Source: an uncultured cyanobacterium (lineage in GTDB: Bacteria > Cyanobacteriota > Vampirovibrionia > Gastranaerophilales > Gastranaerophilaceae). Taken from it: a stretch of 33,374 nucleotides of DNA. Positions within the stretch are counted from its first letter, which is position 1, and every line of letters begins with the position of its first letter. This document shows positions 8,997 to 32,538 of this stretch, piece by piece. Both the position numbers and the translations under genes were made by a program. Under the pieces are notes generated by a model. It did no database searches, was not told the DNA's origin, and saw nothing but the letters and a program-made list of their open reading frames with translations. Location: assembly GCA_945487905.1 (NCBI GenBank), contig CALYTW010000012.1, positions 1 through 33,374 of the forward strand, written 5' to 3'.

Positions 8997-9025
8997 AAGC
9001 CCGAGGTTGAAACCTCGGGCTTCTT
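8997..9025 (+). terminator. Rho-independent terminator after the GT5-like gene
   Basis: AGCCCGAGGTT-GA-AACCTCGGGCT is a near-perfect GC-rich stem followed by TTCTTAAT. It lies 9 bases after the stop codon at 8988. Confidence 0.85.
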
Positions 9026-9042
9026 AATATAAAATCTAAAAT

Positions 9043-9720
9043 ATGATTATTAAAACATTTATTGAACCGCCTATTGATAATAATAATTACGTATTAATAG
9101 ATGAAGAAACTAAAGAAGGAGCTTTAATCGATTGTTCGTCGCCTGCAATATGGAACAAAGTTCCTTATACTAGAGGCAAGGTTTCCGTCAGCACAGTTGG
9201 GGAAAATAGAGAAGAAATTGAGAATGTAACATTAAAGTACATTCTGCTGACTCACGGACATTTTGATCATATAGCAGGGATAAAATCAAAGAATTCTTAC
9301 CTGCCGGATTCGACAGAAAGACCTCAAATTTATATGCATAAAGATGATTTGAACTGGGTGCAAGAAGTTAACACTTTCATGCCCATGATGGGTATGCCGG
9401 AAATGGATATTCCGCAAATTGATGTTTTTGTCGAAGATAGGGATGTGATTAAACTCGGAAATATTGAAATAAGAGTTATACATACTCCAGGTCATACACA
9501 GGGAGGTGTTTGCTACTACACAAACGGAGTTTTATTCTCGGGAGATACAATATTCAGAGAAGCCGTCGGAAGATGCGATTTGCAAGGCGGAAATTTTGAA
9601 CAAATTGTTGACAGCATTGAAAACAAGCTCTATAAACTGCCGGATGATACAATTATTTACCCGGGTCACGGAAAACAGACAACTATCGGCTGGGAAAAAG
9701 AACACAACTTATTTCTTTAA
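9043..9720 (+). CDS. MBL-fold metallo-hydrolase (glyoxalase II-like)
   Basis: 225-aa metallo-beta-lactamase-fold hydrolase. The zinc-binding motif THGHFDHIAG (H-x-H-x-D-H) and the second-shell HTPGHTQGG histidine are present. The SGDTIF aspartate and the C-terminal YPGHGKQTTIGWEKEHN histidine complete the binuclear metal site. This pattern belongs to the GloB/YcbL-like subgroup that hydrolyses thioesters such as S-lactoylglutathione or related substrates. The exact substrate cannot be read from sequence. No ribosome binding site precedes the ATG; a TAAAAT box ends 7 nt upstream (9030-9035), so the mRNA may be leaderless. Its stop overlaps the stop of the convergent PPTase gene (shared TTAA), with no terminator between them. 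Confidence 0.88.
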   Translation: MIIKTFIEPPIDNNNYVLIDEETKEGALIDCSSPAIWNKVPYTRGKVSVSTVGENREEIENVTLKYILLTHGHFDHIAGIKSKNSYLPDSTERPQIYMHKDDLNWVQEVNTFMPMMGMPEMDIPQIDVFVEDRDVIKLGNIEIRVIHTPGHTQGGVCYYTNGVLFSGDTIFREAVGRCDLQGGNFEQIVDSIENKLYKLPDDTIIYPGHGKQTTIGWEKEHNLFL

Positions 9721-10229
9721 AAAGACTTGTATAATTCAAATTTCTCATCAGTATTTGCACAAACTGCAGTAAGTATATAGCTTCCTAGTTCAATGTAATA
9801 TTTAGAAATGTTTTCATTTGATTCATTGAATTTATACATCGCTTCATACTCAGTCCAATTTTTGTAAAATTCTTCCAATGAATCTGATTTAAATCCCATT
9901 TTTTCAGAAATTGCCCTATAATTACGCTCTTTAATTTCTTCTATATCTATCCCGCAATTATAATCAGAGAAACCAATTGCAATATATCCGCCGGAATGAC
10001 TTATGGAAAAATGTTTTCTCCCCGATTTTAAGATAGGCTTGTTCAAATGAAAAACAATTTCACAATCCTCAATGTGATAAATTTCTCTTAGAATCCTGTT
10101 TACCATTAAGTATGATAAACAATGAATAACATTTTTGTCATAGTTATTATATTTTTTGTAATCAAATTCTTTCAACAATTCTTCCGGAAGAAATTTTGCA
10201 ACTCTTATATCAATCACATAAATATCCAT
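9717..10229 (-). CDS. 4'-phosphopantetheinyl transferase, Sfp/AcpT superfamily
   Basis: Transfers 4'-phosphopantetheine from CoA to a Ser of an acyl or peptidyl carrier protein. At 170 aa it is shorter than Sfp (~220) but keeps all core motifs: FSISHS (74-79), GIDIEE (93-98, with the Mg2+-binding Asp95 and Glu97), and W-x3-E-x3-K as NWTEYEAMYK (124-133). The first ~45 residues are a reduced N-terminal lobe. It is most likely the enzyme that activates a fatty-acid-synthase ACP or a secondary-metabolite carrier. No Shine-Dalgarno is present. The ATG lies 6 nt after the -10 box TAAAAT read on the minus strand, so its mRNA is predicted to be leaderless. It is divergent from rsmH and shares a symmetrical promoter region with it. 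Confidence 0.87.
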   Translation of the reverse strand: MDIYVIDIRVAKFLPEELLKEFDYKKYNNYDKNVIHCLSYLMVNRILREIYHIEDCEIVFHLNKPILKSGRKHFSISHSGGYIAIGFSDYNCGIDIEEIKERNYRAISEKMGFKSDSLEEFYKNWTEYEAMYKFNESNENISKYYIELGSYILTAVCANTDEKFELYKSF

Positions 10230-10235
10230 AGAATA

Positions 10236-10257
10236 ATTTTAACATACATGTTAAAAT
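10236..10257. promoter_or_regulatory. Symmetric divergent promoter: inverted ATGTTAAAAT boxes for the PPTase gene and rsmH
   Basis: ATTTTAACAT-AC-ATGTTAAAAT is a 10-bp inverted repeat around two bases. Each arm is an extended -10 element (TGTTAAAAT) on its own strand. On both sides exactly six bases separate the box from an ATG (10229 on minus, 10264 on plus). Each A of ATG therefore sits where transcription should begin. Confidence 0.7.
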
Positions 10258-10263
10258 ATGCCT

Positions 10264-11190
10264 ATGGATGACTTTAAACATTATACGGTAATGCTAAACG
10301 AGGCTGTTGATGCGCTGGAATGTAAAGACGGCAAGGTTTATATTGATTGCACTCTCGGGGGAGGCGGTCACAGCGAGCTTATTTTAAAAAGAATTTCTCC
10401 TAACGGCAGGCTGATTGCATTTGACATCGATGACGAAGCCATAGCACACTCTAAAGAACGATTAAAAGATTATAAAAATATTACTGTAATAAAATCTTCT
10501 TATACAAATATAAAGCAGGAATTAGCAAAACTAGGGATAGATAAAATTACTGGCGGCGTAATCCTCGATTTGGGAGCATCATATCATCAGCTTACAAAAG
10601 CGGAAAGAGGTTTTTCTTTTTCTAAAAATGCACCTTTGGATATGCGTTTTGATATGGAAAGCAATTTTTCCGCATATGATTTAATAAACGGTTACAAAGA
10701 AGAAGATTTGGTAAGGATTTTTAGCGAATACGGAGAAGAAAGATTTTCAAAAAGAATTGCAAAGAAAATTGTCGAAATTCGTTCTAAAAAAAAGATAGAA
10801 ACAACCGTAGAACTTGCAGAACTTATCGTTAATGCAACACCCAGAATAAAAAGCTCTGTACACCCGGCCACAAGAGTATTTCAGGCTGTCAGAATAGAAG
10901 TTAACCAAGAGTTAAAAAATGTAAATAATGTATTGCATGACATATTGGATTTGTTAGAAGTTGGTGGTATAATTTCTGTATTGAGTTTTCATTCACTGGA
11001 GGATAGAATTGTCAAACAATTCTTCAAGTATGAAAGCCAGCAGTGCAGGTGCAATGATATGATTTGCAAATGCACACCGCCAAGATTAAAAATCGTAAAC
11101 AAAAAACCGATTTTGGCGTCACAAGAGGAGATAAAGGAAAATCCGCCGTCAAGGAGTGCCAAACTCAGAATTGCGAGGTGTATTTTCTGA
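10264..11190 (+). CDS. rsmH: 16S rRNA (cytosine1402-N4)-methyltransferase RsmH
   Basis: SAM-dependent methyltransferase that modifies C1402 in the ribosomal P site; formerly MraW, usually first or second in the division/cell-wall cluster. The SAM-binding motif I is YIDCTLGGGGHSE. The family motif LDLGASYHQLTKAERGFSF follows, and the C-terminus has the cysteine cluster CRCNDMICKC and the PPRSAKLRIARCIF-like ending. The start at 10264 (MDDFKHYTVMLNEAV, 308 aa) is preferred over the track's 10258. The ATG at 10258 abuts the -10 box, while 10264 begins at the predicted transcription start and matches the family N-terminus. It is followed by an FtsL-like gene, as in dcw clusters, but no mraZ or ftsI is here. 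Confidence 0.95.
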   Translation: MDDFKHYTVMLNEAVDALECKDGKVYIDCTLGGGGHSELILKRISPNGRLIAFDIDDEAIAHSKERLKDYKNITVIKSSYTNIKQELAKLGIDKITGGVILDLGASYHQLTKAERGFSFSKNAPLDMRFDMESNFSAYDLINGYKEEDLVRIFSEYGEERFSKRIAKKIVEIRSKKKIETTVELAELIVNATPRIKSSVHPATRVFQAVRIEVNQELKNVNNVLHDILDLLEVGGIISVLSFHSLEDRIVKQFFKYESQQCRCNDMICKCTPPRLKIVNKKPILASQEEIKENPPSRSAKLRIARCIF

Positions 11191-11768: not shown

Positions 11769-12716
11769 ATGTGTGTTGATTTGTTGGAAAATAAAACCTT
11801 TTTTAAACTTATCTGCGGTGCCGGAAACGAAGATTGTGAGTCTGTTAAACGACTTGTATATGTTTATGCAAAAGCCGGCTGTAAGGTTTTTGATTTGTCC
11901 GCAAAAGCAGAAGTTCTTCAATCCGCAAAAGAAGGGGTTGCCCTTGCCAATTCAGAAAATGTGCATTTCTGCATATCAATCGGGATAAGAGGAGATAAGC
12001 ATATTTCAAAAGCGGAGGTAAATTCTTCAAAATGTATTACATGCGGAAATTGCACAAGAAATTGTCCGAATAGTGCAATATATCCGCCAAATTTAATCGA
12101 TGAAAAAAAATGTATAGGATGCGGTAAGTGTGCTGAGAAATGCCCTGCGAACGCAATAAAAATGTATGAAAAAGATATAAATATACAAAAAGTTTTACCT
12201 GAATTGATGAACAATGGTGCTGAAATAATAGAACTTCATATTATGGGGCATGACAAAAAGGATTTGGACTATAAATGGAATATTATTAATCGATGCAGTC
12301 CCAAAATGGCTTCTATATGCATAGACAGAGAAAACTTCGGAAACAAAGAAGTTTTGTCAAGAATAAGGGAAATGGCGGAAACAAGGAAACCATACACAAC
12401 AATTATTCAAGCAGATGGCGTTCCGATGAGCGGAAGTAAAGATGATTACAAAACAACACTTCAAGCTGCGGCTATGGCTGAAATTATACAAAATGCAAAT
12501 TTGCCTGTATATTTAACTTTATCAGGAGGAACAAATTCCAAAACGATGGAATTGTGTCATCAATGCGGAATTTATCCGCATGGGATTGCAATAGGTTCTT
12601 GGGCAAGAAAAATTATAAAAGAGTATACGGAACTTTCGGATTTTTGGGAAAACAAGGGGGCTCAGGAAGAAGCCGTAAATTTGGCAAAAGGTTTAATAGA
12701 ATCTGTTTGTATTTAG
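11769..12716 (+). CDS. ldpA: LdpA-like iron-sulfur protein (cyanobacterial clock-input family)
   Basis: 315 aa. The N-terminus FFKLICGAGNEDCESVKRLV continues with YVYAKAGCKVFDLSAKAEVL. This closely resembles, from memory, the LdpA opening in cyanobacteria (WFKLICGAS...LTLAYTLAGADCIDVAADPAVI). Two [4Fe-4S] ferredoxin motifs follow: C89-x2-C92-x2-C95-x3-C99P and C115-x2-C118-x2-C121-x3-C125P. The rest resembles a TIM-barrel-like C-terminal domain with an SGGTNSKT phosphate-loop-like motif. In Synechococcus, LdpA senses redox state and feeds it to the circadian clock. Here no kai gene is in view, so the ancestral role is probably redox sensing or an unknown enzymatic step. It starts 11 bp after the FtsL-like gene with no clear ribosome binding site; cotranscription or coupling is likely. 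Confidence 0.75.
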   Translation: MCVDLLENKTFFKLICGAGNEDCESVKRLVYVYAKAGCKVFDLSAKAEVLQSAKEGVALANSENVHFCISIGIRGDKHISKAEVNSSKCITCGNCTRNCPNSAIYPPNLIDEKKCIGCGKCAEKCPANAIKMYEKDINIQKVLPELMNNGAEIIELHIMGHDKKDLDYKWNIINRCSPKMASICIDRENFGNKEVLSRIREMAETRKPYTTIIQADGVPMSGSKDDYKTTLQAAAMAEIIQNANLPVYLTLSGGTNSKTMELCHQCGIYPHGIAIGSWARKIIKEYTELSDFWENKGAQEEAVNLAKGLIESVCI

Positions 12717-19632: not shown

Positions 19633-19663
19633 TTGCATAAGATTAACGAATTTATGTTATCAT
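19633..19663 (+). promoter_or_regulatory. nth promoter with extended -10, leaderless layout
   Basis: TTGCAT (19633) and the extended -10 ATGTTATCAT ending at 19663 (spacer 19). Seven nt later comes the nth ATG, with no ribosome binding site. Confidence 0.55.
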
Positions 19664-19670
19664 AAATTAC

Positions 19671-20294
19671 ATGATAGATAAAATTGTTAAAAAGTTAAAG
19701 GATGCAAATCAGCAAAAAAGCGAATTTGTAGGACTTATGGATTCATTTAACAATCCGTATCTTGTACTGATTGCTTGTATTTTAAGCTTGAGAACAAACG
19801 ATAAAACTACTTATCCCGCAACATTGCGGATGCTTAAACTTGCTAAAACTCCAGCAGAAATGAAAAAAGTGAGTATAAATGACTTAGCCAAAGCAATTTA
19901 TCCAGTAGGATTTTATGAAAACAAAGCAAAACAGATAATTGAGCTTTCAAAGATTATTGATGAGGATTTGGACGGAATTGTTCCTGACGAGATTGAAGAG
20001 CTTGTAAAATTTAACGGAGTTGGGCGCAAAACAGCCAACCTCGTGCTTGCAAGAGGGTTTAATAAACCTGCTATCTGTGTTGATGTTCACGTCCACAGAA
20101 TTTTTAACAGGCTTGGCTATGTCAAAACAAAGAATCCCGAAGAAACCGAATTTGCCCTGAGAGATAAACTGCCTAAAAAATATTGGATTGAAATAAACAC
20201 ACTAATCGTAACCCACGGGCAAAACTGCTGTACACCAAGAAACCCGAAATGTCAAGAATGTCCGATAGAAGAACATTGTGCAAAAATAATCTAA
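19671..20294 (+). CDS. nth: Endonuclease III (DNA glycosylase / AP lyase)
   Basis: Base-excision-repair enzyme removing oxidised pyrimidines and cutting the abasic strand; 207 aa, normal length. The helix-hairpin-helix is FNGVGRKTANLVLARG with the catalytic Lys in GRKTA. The catalytic Asp lies in VDVHVHRIFNRLG. The C-terminal [4Fe-4S] loop is C-x6-C-x2-C-x5-C (CTPRNPKCQECPIEEHC). The LSLRTNDKTT motif in place of E. coli LSAQATD is typical of archaeal/Thermotoga-type members. No Shine-Dalgarno is seen, and the ATG lies 7 nt after an extended -10, so the mRNA is probably leaderless and independent of the dnaN unit. Its stop overlaps that of the convergent 115-aa gene by 4 bp. Confidence 0.94.
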   Translation: MIDKIVKKLKDANQQKSEFVGLMDSFNNPYLVLIACILSLRTNDKTTYPATLRMLKLAKTPAEMKKVSINDLAKAIYPVGFYENKAKQIIELSKIIDEDLDGIVPDEIEELVKFNGVGRKTANLVLARGFNKPAICVDVHVHRIFNRLGYVKTKNPEETEFALRDKLPKKYWIEINTLIVTHGQNCCTPRNPKCQECPIEEHCAKII

Positions 20295-26803: not shown

Positions 26804-27433
26804 TTACAAAAACCCGTTTTCATGCAGAAATTCAGAGTCTATTCCTGTTTTATTATTATCCGTTGATAAAAATTTTTCAATATATTTTGCACACATATCA
26901 ACTTCTACGTTTACAAAATTATCTTTACTCAAGTATTGTAAATTTGTATTTTCAAATGTATGGGGGATTACGGCAATCGTAATTATGTTTTTATTTACAT
27001 CTGCAATAGTCAAACTTATACCGTTGATAGAAATTGAACCTTTTTTAATAACATATTTAGCATATTCATTCGGAATTTCTATTTTCAGATTATAGAAATT
27101 TCCGATTTTAGTTACATTTACGCATTTACCCCTGCCATCAATATGTCCGGAAACAATATGTCCCCCGAATCTTCCATCTGCGGGCATCGCACGTTCAAGA
27201 TTAACAAAATCTCCTGATTTCAAATCATTAAGGTTTGTAACCTTTTTGGTTTCGGGAGATATATCTGCAGTTAAACCGTTATCACTGATTTTACAAACAG
27301 TTAAGCATATACCGTTGACTGAAACACTGTCTCCGATTTTTGTATTTTCAATAACGGTTTGACACAAAATACCGATTTTATCAGACGAAATAAATTCTAT
27401 CCTGCCTATTTCTTCTATAATACCCGTGAACAT
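26804..27433 (-). CDS. ribE: Riboflavin synthase alpha subunit
   Basis: Final step of riboflavin synthesis: dismutation of two 6,7-dimethyl-8-ribityllumazine molecules. The 209-aa product has the two internal lumazine-binding repeats: MFTGIIEEIGRIEFI...GDSVSVNGICLTV (1-~95) and VSGHIDGRGKCVNV...KKGSISINGISLTIADV (~100-190). The ORF track starts 12 codons early (MTSCCVLWYNHC...). The ATG at 27433 is right because MFTGIIEE is the family N-terminus, and a perfect TATAAT ends exactly 6 nt upstream with no room for a Shine-Dalgarno. The mRNA is therefore predicted to be leaderless, which also excludes an FMN riboswitch. ribBA follows after 8 bp. Confidence 0.95.
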   Translation of the reverse strand: MFTGIIEEIGRIEFISSDKIGILCQTVIENTKIGDSVSVNGICLTVCKISDNGLTADISPETKKVTNLNDLKSGDFVNLERAMPADGRFGGHIVSGHIDGRGKCVNVTKIGNFYNLKIEIPNEYAKYVIKKGSISINGISLTIADVNKNIITIAVIPHTFENTNLQYLSKDNFVNVEVDMCAKYIEKFLSTDNNKTGIDSEFLHENGFL

Positions 27434-27469
27434 ACAGTGATTATACCATAAGACACAGCAACTTGTCAT
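27434..27469 (-). promoter_or_regulatory. ribE promoter, leaderless layout
   Basis: On the minus strand ATGACA (-35, 27464-27469), an 18-nt spacer and the extended -10 ATGGTATAAT (hexamer 27440-27445). Six nt later comes the ribE ATG. Confidence 0.75.
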
Positions 27470-27494
27470 TAATATATGGTTAAACTTTTAATTT

Positions 27495-27504
27495 ATGTTA
27501 GAAT
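27495..27504 (+). promoter_or_regulatory. dprA extended -10, leaderless layout
   Basis: ATGTTAGAAT (hexamer 27499-27504) followed by TAATTT and then the dprA ATG at 27511. No ribosome binding site and no clear -35. Confidence 0.65.
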
Positions 27505-27510
27505 TAATTT

Positions 27511-28593
27511 ATGAATACAAAATATTGGACTGCATTCGCTTCAATTGAGCAGTTGGATTCAACCTTTATCCAACAGCTTTATAATTATTTCGGAGATATT
27601 GAAACCGCATTTAATGCAAATATTTCTGAGCTCAGACAGATAGAAGGACTTTCCGTAAAAAAAGCCGAGACCTTTGTGGAAAAAAAGAAGAAAATAAATC
27701 CTGATCAAACACTGGAATTCGTTTTAAACAGGGAGATAAAAATATTAACCTTTGACGACACAAATTATCCCTATATGCTCCGTCAAATTCCAAACCCTCC
27801 GATGACTTTGTTTTATAAAGGAGATTTGTCTGGCTGTAATTTGAACAAAACAGTAGCCTTTGTGGGTTCAAGAAAGGCAAGTTTTTCTGGCAAAGAAGGA
27901 GTAAGCAGAGTTATTGCCGATTTAAGGAACACCGACTTGTGTATAGTTTCAGGACTTGCTACCGGAATCGATGCAGTTTCACACAAAAGTGCAATAGATA
28001 ACAACCTTAAAACAATTGGAGTTATAGCCAGCGGTCTTGACCATATTTATCCTACAGGCAATAAACACTTGTATGAACAAATTGAAAACGGATGCGGTGC
28101 TGTTGCAACTGAATATTACCCGACATTTGAGCCGTTACAGTATAGATTTCCGCAGAGAAACAGAATTATAACAGGCTTGTCATACGGAACTGTTGTCGGA
28201 GAGGCTGCTCTAAAAAGCGGAGCTTTGATAAGTGCTAATTTAACCCTCGAACAGGGCAGAGAACTTATGTGCATCCCAGGAGCGATAAATAATGTCAATA
28301 CGGAAGGAATATATAAACTGTTGAAAGACGGTGCAACAATGGTTACAACAGGGGAAGATATTTTAAATACACTCGGCTGGGAAGTTCAAACTTCGGAAAA
28401 ATTTCATGAAAACAAAGTTTCAAAAAAATATCTGCCGGTTTATAATATAGTGTCAGTTGAAGCAAAGGGATTTGATGAAATACAAACCGAAACCGGAATG
28501 AAAACCGACGAATTGTTAGTTCTATTGACAGAAATGGAACTTCACGGTTTAATAGAACAGTCAGACGGCGATAAGTATAAAAGGGTAAATTAA
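27511..28593 (+). CDS. dprA: DNA-processing protein DprA (Smf)
   Basis: Protects incoming single-stranded DNA during natural transformation and loads RecA; also present in many non-competent bacteria. 360 aa: an N-terminal helix-hairpin-helix/SAM-like region with GLSVKKAETFVEKKK; the Rossmann core with VGSRKASFSGKEG, SGLATGIDAVSHKSA, VIASGLDHIYP and FPQRNRIITGLS (~110-290); and a C-terminal winged-helix (DML1-like) domain with IQTETGMKTDELLVLLTEME. No ribosome binding site; the ATG follows a -10 box by 6 nt. topA starts 12 bp after its stop, the same dprA-topA order found in many Firmicutes, so the two are probably one transcript. Confidence 0.95.
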   Translation: MNTKYWTAFASIEQLDSTFIQQLYNYFGDIETAFNANISELRQIEGLSVKKAETFVEKKKKINPDQTLEFVLNREIKILTFDDTNYPYMLRQIPNPPMTLFYKGDLSGCNLNKTVAFVGSRKASFSGKEGVSRVIADLRNTDLCIVSGLATGIDAVSHKSAIDNNLKTIGVIASGLDHIYPTGNKHLYEQIENGCGAVATEYYPTFEPLQYRFPQRNRIITGLSYGTVVGEAALKSGALISANLTLEQGRELMCIPGAINNVNTEGIYKLLKDGATMVTTGEDILNTLGWEVQTSEKFHENKVSKKYLPVYNIVSVEAKGFDEIQTETGMKTDELLVLLTEMELHGLIEQSDGDKYKRVN

Positions 28594-31503: not shown

Positions 31504-32538
31504 TTGCGAAAAATCCGGCTTGCTGAAATGGCACCTCATGTACATAGTTTTCAGCCTAACGAAAATAAAACCGAAAAAATTGCAAAATGGATGATTGCAT
31601 GGATTACAATTGCATTGAGAGGCGAAATAATAAAGCCTTATGATTTACTGCCGTCAAAAGCTGAAATTGCCTGCCATATCGGAGTCAGCCTCGGAACAAT
31701 GCAAAATGTATACAGAATACTGGAAGATGCAGGATATATTGAATCCAAACAAAAAATAGGTTCGTTTGTCAAAGACAGAAAGTTTGAAAGCGTTGAAAAA
31801 CTTACTTCAAAAAAAGATTTGGCAACGGATGTTATCAAAAAATATATGAAAGACAACAACTATAAATCCGGCGACGAATTGCTTTCCATACGAAAACTTT
31901 CCAAAATTACCGGCGTTTCAAGTGCAACAATCAGGGCTGCTGTAACGAATCTAGTCATGCAGGGAATTTTAGAAAAGAAAAAAAATTCTTATTTATTAAC
32001 AGGCAGATCTTTCAGGGCACATAATGTTGAAGCAAAAACTCTTGTTGAAAAAATCTCTGAAAATATAAAAGAATATGTAAAAAATAACTTAAAATCCGGA
32101 GAAAAACTGCCTCCCAGTATTGAACTTGCAAGAATGTTTAATGTAAGTGTTAAAACGGTACACGATTCCGTCAAGTTATTGTCAAAAGAAGGACTGCTCC
32201 ATGCAAGACGTGGGAAATACGGAACTACGGTCGTTACGGATGAGTATAACGAATCTGCCGTTCTTTATAACTACGAAATAATTGAACAAAAAATTAAAGA
32301 ATACATTATTAAAAATTGCAAAACAGGGGATAAATTGCCGTCCATAAAAGTTTTTGCAAAAATGCTTGAAACAAGTGAAAAAACAGTAAAAAAAGCACTG
32401 GATAACCTTGCAGGAGAGGGATACGTAACTTTTATGAGAGGCAGATACGGCGGCACATTTGTAACAGATATTCCTGTAAACGAAGGCTATACTTGGATTG
32501 CAATAAGTTCAGACTATATTCGTAGAGCTGAAAATTAG
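31504..32538 (+). CDS. Transcriptional regulator of four tandem GntR-type winged helix-turn-helix units
   Basis: 344 aa made almost only of GntR-like DNA-binding units. Unit 1 (~20-83): GEIIKPYDLLPSKAEIACHI, GVSLGTMQNVYRILEDAGYI. Unit 2 (~97-167): KSGDELLSIRKLSKITGVSS, ATIRAAVTNLVMQGIL. Unit 3 (~180-250): KSGEKLPPSIELARMFNVSV, KTVHDSVKLLSKEGLL. Unit 4 (~260-327): KTGDKLPSIKVFAKMLETSE, KTVKKALDNLAGEGYV. Each shows the x-G-x-x-LPS-x-x-x-[LF]A pattern, the recognition helix and, mostly, the G-x-x-G-T-x-V wing. No effector-binding domain (FCD, UTRA or aminotransferase) is present. Usual GntR proteins have one such unit and dimerise. The start is TTG with GGAG 7 nt upstream. The target is unknown; autoregulation is likely but unproven. 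Confidence 0.85.
   Translation: MRKIRLAEMAPHVHSFQPNENKTEKIAKWMIAWITIALRGEIIKPYDLLPSKAEIACHIGVSLGTMQNVYRILEDAGYIESKQKIGSFVKDRKFESVEKLTSKKDLATDVIKKYMKDNNYKSGDELLSIRKLSKITGVSSATIRAAVTNLVMQGILEKKKNSYLLTGRSFRAHNVEAKTLVEKISENIKEYVKNNLKSGEKLPPSIELARMFNVSVKTVHDSVKLLSKEGLLHARRGKYGTTVVTDEYNESAVLYNYEIIEQKIKEYIIKNCKTGDKLPSIKVFAKMLETSEKTVKKALDNLAGEGYVTFMRGRYGGTFVTDIPVNEGYTWIAISSDYIRRAEN

Follow-up and report, generated by a model that had tools for sequence, protein, structure and literature searches.

Extended -10 boxes at start codons suggest a minority class of leaderless genes in Gastranaerophilales

The DNA analysed here, a stretch of 33,374 nucleotides (referred to as the window), belongs to an uncultured member of the Gastranaerophilales and raises the question whether some of its genes are transcribed from the start codon onward. 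This order is a gut-dwelling, non-photosynthetic branch of Cyanobacteriota, and the genome was assigned to it because the closest named relatives of its ribE are mostly MAGs of Gastranaerophilales/Melainabacteria and because it encodes an LdpA-like protein. A first-pass annotation had described five genes as leaderless, with extended -10 boxes ending 6 nt (PPTase, rsmH, ribE and dprA) or 7 nt (nth) before the ATG, and had named an MBL-fold gene as a weaker sixth case. The positions and spacings of all five boxes match the sequence. The gene starts in question are the following, where "leaderless" denotes the predicted class:

27440-27449, minus strand: extended -10 box of ribE, ATGGTATAAT; hexamer TATAAT at 27445-27440, 6 nt to ATG 27433
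26804-27433, minus strand: ribE gene (riboflavin synthase), predicted leaderless; NF006767, 226 bits; start set by MFTGIIEE
27495-27504, plus strand: extended -10 box of dprA, ATGTTAGAAT; TAGAAT at 27499-27504, 6 nt to ATG 27511
27511-28593, plus strand: dprA gene, predicted leaderless; TIGR00732
10236-10245, minus strand: extended -10 box of the PPTase gene, ATGTTAAAAT; TAAAAT at 10241-10236, 6 nt to ATG 10229
9717-10229, minus strand: 4'-phosphopantetheinyl transferase-like (PPTase) gene, predicted leaderless; profile score below the curated cut-off
10248-10257, plus strand: extended -10 box of rsmH, ATGTTAAAAT; TAAAAT at 10252-10257, 6 nt to ATG 10264
10264-11190, plus strand: rsmH gene, predicted leaderless; profile match and homologues
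19654-19663, plus strand: extended -10 box of nth, ATGTTATCAT; TATCAT at 19658-19663, 7 nt to ATG 19671
19671-20294, plus strand: nth gene (endonuclease III), predicted leaderless; profile match
9030-9035, plus strand: -10 hexamer TAAAAT of the MBL-fold gene, without TG; 7 nt to ATG 9043
9043-9720, plus strand: MBL-fold hydrolase gene, probably leaderless; profile match and congeneric orthologue

Gene starts in the window

The congeneric orthologue of the MBL-fold gene carries TACAAT at a distance of 6 nt, and the box of this gene is probably a genuine sixth case. A Shine-Dalgarno (SD) motif at the usual distance is missing upstream of PPTase, rsmH, ribE, dprA and nth, as had been claimed, and also upstream of the MBL-fold gene. 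The ribosome binding sites ascribed to glmS and to the SLH gene could likewise be found, since an SD motif is seen at both as well as at several other genes; dnaN and infC, named together with these two, are present in the window.

The start of ribE is known independently of its box because of the invariant N-terminus MFTGIIEE. The longest open reading frame reaches 27469 and thereby extends past the likely true start, which the homologues place at 27433. Similarly, the longest frame of rsmH begins with ATG 10258, while homologues favour 10264; the in-frame ATG 10258 abuts the -10 box and would fall upstream of the transcript. Start-codon annotation in Gastranaerophilales thus becomes correctable at genes such as these two, where longest-frame calls overshoot. 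An Rfam search of the window returned a single tRNA and nothing else, and therefore no riboswitch leader before ribE.

Two local arrangements may be mentioned here. The start codons of PPTase and rsmH are separated by 34 nt (10230-10263) that hold two back-to-back copies of the same extended -10 box, forming a near-perfect inverted repeat (ATTTTAACAT-AC-ATGTTAAAAT) of two divergent promoters, a symmetry that is absent upstream of the congeneric rsmH. Directly before the MBL promoter, a GC-rich hairpin and the T-rich stretch after it (8999-9025; cccgaggttgaaacctcggg cttctt) are likely the terminator of the preceding gene.

Box positions in orthologues and across genomes

As in the window, the ribE box TG-N-TANNNT is located 6 nt (once 7 nt) before the ATG in each of the 16 Gastranaerophilales relatives compared, and the spacer sequence varies. 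The ribE genes from outside the order that were compared alongside are devoid of the box and many of them are SD-like upstream. Columns -15, -14, -12, -11, -9 to -7 and -1 of the ribE profile carry 1.2-2.0 bits and columns -6 to -2 only 0.2-0.75 bits, i.e. the TG, the TA..AT and the T at -1 are conserved and the spacer between them is free. The rsmH profile resembles that of ribE, and the box keeps its distance from the ATG in 20 of 28 family genomes, which almost all represent separate genera. A comparable box is present in approximately 10 of 30 family loci of nth, whose starts are less certain, a few of them being alternative start choices.

As a case conserved throughout the family, dprA had to be discarded, since its box is found in 2 of 30 family loci, both from this genus. 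The upstream sequences suggest that outside the genus dprA generally comes shortly after another reading frame. Leaderless status therefore appears to follow operon position, as a class defined by promoters should, which suggests that dprA is a gene that switches class with its place in the operon. Within the genus, orthologues in the two sampled congeners share their box status (7/12 versus 11/115, P = 1.8e-4).

The first-pass annotation had named a genome-wide count of TANNAT 6-7 nt before start codons as a check, and this count reveals a distinct enrichment. Gene starts were called with a home-made finder, and since its codon model ignores the upstream sequence, the choice of a start is independent of the box. 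In the sample of the own genome (413 kb including the window, 362 starts, approximately 25% of the genome), there are 15 TANNAT boxes at a gap of 6 nt and 11 at 7 nt, and the neighbouring gaps (1-5 and 8-12) average 4.3 each; the two counts add up to 26 boxes versus 8.6 expected (P = 1.3e-6). The TG-extended form is found 9 and 3 times at the two gaps and 0-2 times at the other gaps between 0 and 13. The congener G166 yields 27 and 9 boxes, 36 versus 10.8 expected (P = 1.2e-9). The net leaderless-type fraction above background amounts to 4.8% of the genes in the own genome and 6.7% in the congener, and by this estimate transcription seems to begin at the start codon in roughly one of every 15 to 20 genes.

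G214, the sole representative of a different family of the order in the sample, has a weaker peak, at gap 6 only (12 versus 4.4 per gap; 1 at gap 7). In G240, which is more distant and belongs to another family of the same class, -10-like boxes are spread over gaps 6-9 and only 19% of the starts possess an SD motif, possibly reflecting leaderless genes plus very short leaders. For this genome, a base-composition null of the gene finder had yielded just 109 genes; testing ruled out a variant genetic code, and a frame-based null resolved the low gene yield. No peak at gaps 6-7 was detected in a low-GC Clostridium (31% GC, 54% SD; 5 TANNAT versus 7.2 expected) or in the photosynthetic cyanobacterium G095 (2 versus 3.0 expected).

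Pattern counts in complete genomes point in the same direction. The own genome (1.66 Mb, 115 contigs) contains 14 matches to TATGNTANNAT-N6-ATG, 2 to the reversed pattern and 5 at N9 spacing. The 28 family genomes common to both counts together contain 645 N6 and 112 N9 matches (hand-summed), so that displacing the ATG by 3 nt reduces the matches approximately six-fold in the same genomes. Most family members have approximately 10-50 N6 matches each and about 1 in the reversed control, and the counts in class outgroups and in Cyanobacteriia (approximately 150 genomes of the latter) are mostly near background. Since the other genomes from a 43-locus search, mostly gut Firmicutes, also show mostly 0-15 matches, the bare N6 pattern is not exclusive to Gastranaerophilales. 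Two peculiarities of these counts are a TATGA-unit tandem repeat at G000:C21:3502-3550, which gives overlapping TATGATATGATATG matches, and the uncultured Clostridia genome Lapin-002 (G335) with 19 N6 matches (1 forward versus 18 reverse), whose ribE is SD-like upstream.

Because the AT-rich genome produces a background of approximately 4 boxes per gap, about a third of the individual box genes may be coincidental. One could extend this argument to all of them and assume that A/T-rich promoters of leadered transcripts happen to land near an ATG. For the class as a whole, such a coincidence is disfavoured by the sharp spacing, the conservation in orthologues and the negative controls, and we consider it hardly credible.

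SD motifs occur at none of the 26 box genes in the own genome and at 3 of 36 in the congener. However, an SD motif is likewise missing where other A/T hexamers occupy this place, so its absence in box genes is in part a consequence of position and was dropped as independent evidence.

Promoter features and the proposed mode of initiation

The promoter alignment comprises 62 box genes from the own genome and its congener, anchored on the hexamer. A -35-like hexamer opening with TTG is present at a 17-nt spacer in 12 of them, compared to 0-3 at the other spacers between 8 and 31, and 25 of the 62 have TG at -15/-14. Position -1 is a pyrimidine in 87-91% of the box genes but in only 57-58% of the SD genes (P = 0.006 in the own genome and 2.5e-4 in the congener). 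The usual initiator is Y-1/R+1, and a pyrimidine at -1 before an A at +1 therefore makes the A of the ATG the likely first transcribed base. In the own genome, boxes are depleted at operon-internal genes (P = 0.007) and enriched at divergent pairs (P = 0.026); the operon-internal depletion in G166 has the same direction and is not significant (P = 0.12). Taken as sequence features, the boxes look like real promoter elements.

The existence of two initiation classes in one genome, as proposed by the first-pass annotation, is thus supported by spacing, promoter grammar, orthologue conservation and negative controls alike. The best reading of these sequences is that a minority leaderless class (approximately 5-7% of the genes, net) coexists with SD genes, and we assign a probability of about 0.88 to the view that housekeeping-sigma promoters placed at start codons give rise to leaderless mRNAs of this class. 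A sigma-70-type polymerase would recognise the extended -10 element (TG-N-TANNAT in many cases), with or without a -35 element. From the spacing and the pyrimidine at -1 we infer that transcription would begin 6-7 nt past the box, on the A of the AUG, giving an mRNA without a leader, whose 5'-terminal AUG would presumably be bound directly by 70S ribosomes, a mode of initiation that is known for leaderless mRNAs (reviewed in PMC9031893). The leaderless class would mainly consist of the first genes of transcription units and of divergent pairs.

The RNA start may be off by 1-2 nt, particularly at the gap-7 genes. These account for 11 of the 26 boxes in the own sample and, together with the range of gaps 6-9 in G240, could mean that the same promoters produce very short leaders of 1-5 nt and that translation still begins at an AUG close to the 5' end. 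The peak at gap 6, seen in the congener as well as in the ribE and rsmH orthologues, argues against such leaders, as does the strongly conserved pyrimidine at -1 beside A+1, which would follow from a start on the A, and we regard them as unlikely.

It is also conceivable that the A/T-rich box acts in translation and that the real promoter lies further upstream; an S1 or AU-rich ribosome site of this kind has been proposed for Bacteroidetes. The box sits, after all, where the SD motif is normally found and where it is missing in these genes. Yet TTG at exactly 17 nt and TG at -15/-14 are DNA promoter features, boxes are depleted in operon-internal genes, and the dprA box is missing in genera where dprA closely trails another reading frame, which makes a ribosome site very improbable. 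We therefore retain transcription from the start codon as the preferred reading.

Leaderless genes in other bacteria and in the lineage

The general mechanism has precedents in Deinococcota, in Actinobacteria and in some Firmicutes. That the -10 box of leaderless genes adjoins the reading frame is well described (PMC3160421, PMC12340547), and PMC9581028 quotes a GeneMarkS-2 prediction of leaderless transcription in 21.6% of bacterial species. The likeness to Deinococcus and Actinobacteria, on which the first-pass annotation had remarked, is one in kind and not in amount, since leaderless genes make up approximately 40% of the genes in Deinococcus-Thermus and approximately 20% in Actinobacteria (Zheng 2011, PMC3160421); a dominance of 20-40% or more is not found here, with net fractions of 4.8% and 6.7%. 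The TANNNT genes of Deinococcus-Thermus (PMC3160421, PMC12340547) share with the present ones a -10 element a few nt before the reading frame, a spacing requirement and a GGAG ribosome-site class alongside. There, however, they comprise approximately 30-40% of the genes and the middle positions of the box are degenerate, whereas the box described here has the AT-rich form TANNAT and is often preceded by TG. Actinobacteria such as Mycobacterium and Streptomyces also combine two initiation classes per genome with transcription from the start codon, but they have a high GC content and more leaderless genes (PMC3160421), while the present genome is low in GC and 23 of the 26 box starts in its sample are ATG. 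With its strong TG element, the signal is closer to the low-GC form of Lactococcus, where TG precedes TAtAAT in a minority of genes beside SD genes (PMC3160421), although Lactococcus belongs to an unrelated phylum and TTG at a 17-nt spacer is additionally enriched in part of the set here.

Photosynthetic Cyanobacteriia belong to the same phylum but differ, as seen from the lack of a peak in G095 and from the near-background counts in approximately 150 genomes. In Zheng 2011 (PMC3160421), Cyanobacteria are not among the phyla listed with leaderless genes and many cyanobacterial genomes are described as using neither SD motifs nor leaderless genes. Our literature search revealed no report that links leaderless genes with Melainabacteria, Gastranaerophilales or Vampirovibrio, with the limitation that domain-wide surveys (PMC12340547 or another) may include the lineage. 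The present genes would accordingly represent a new lineage for a known mode of expression, and a widespread, largely uncultured gut lineage on a branch of Cyanobacteriota would join the bacteria that mix leaderless and SD initiation.

One might go further and assume that the leaderless class on extended -10 promoters extends over all Gastranaerophilales, is ancestral there and absent from the photosynthetic sisters, and that genes switch class with gain or loss of the first place in an operon. We put this forward tentatively, at slightly less than even odds. If true, members of Cyanobacteriota have diverged from one another in how translation is initiated. Gain or loss of leaderless initiation becomes testable inside one phylum through the contrast with Cyanobacteriia, and the orthologue panels of ribE and rsmH provide a ready phylogenetic series.

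Two other genes of the window deserve mention. Upstream of infC, positions 31528-32538 (plus strand) encode a protein of 336 amino acids with four tandem GntR-type winged-helix stretches and no detected effector domain, an unusual multi-HTH architecture. A homologue of LdpA, a cyanobacterial circadian-clock protein, is encoded at 11769-12716 (plus strand; NF045992, 136.7 bits, below the cut-off), in a genome that is probably non-photosynthetic.
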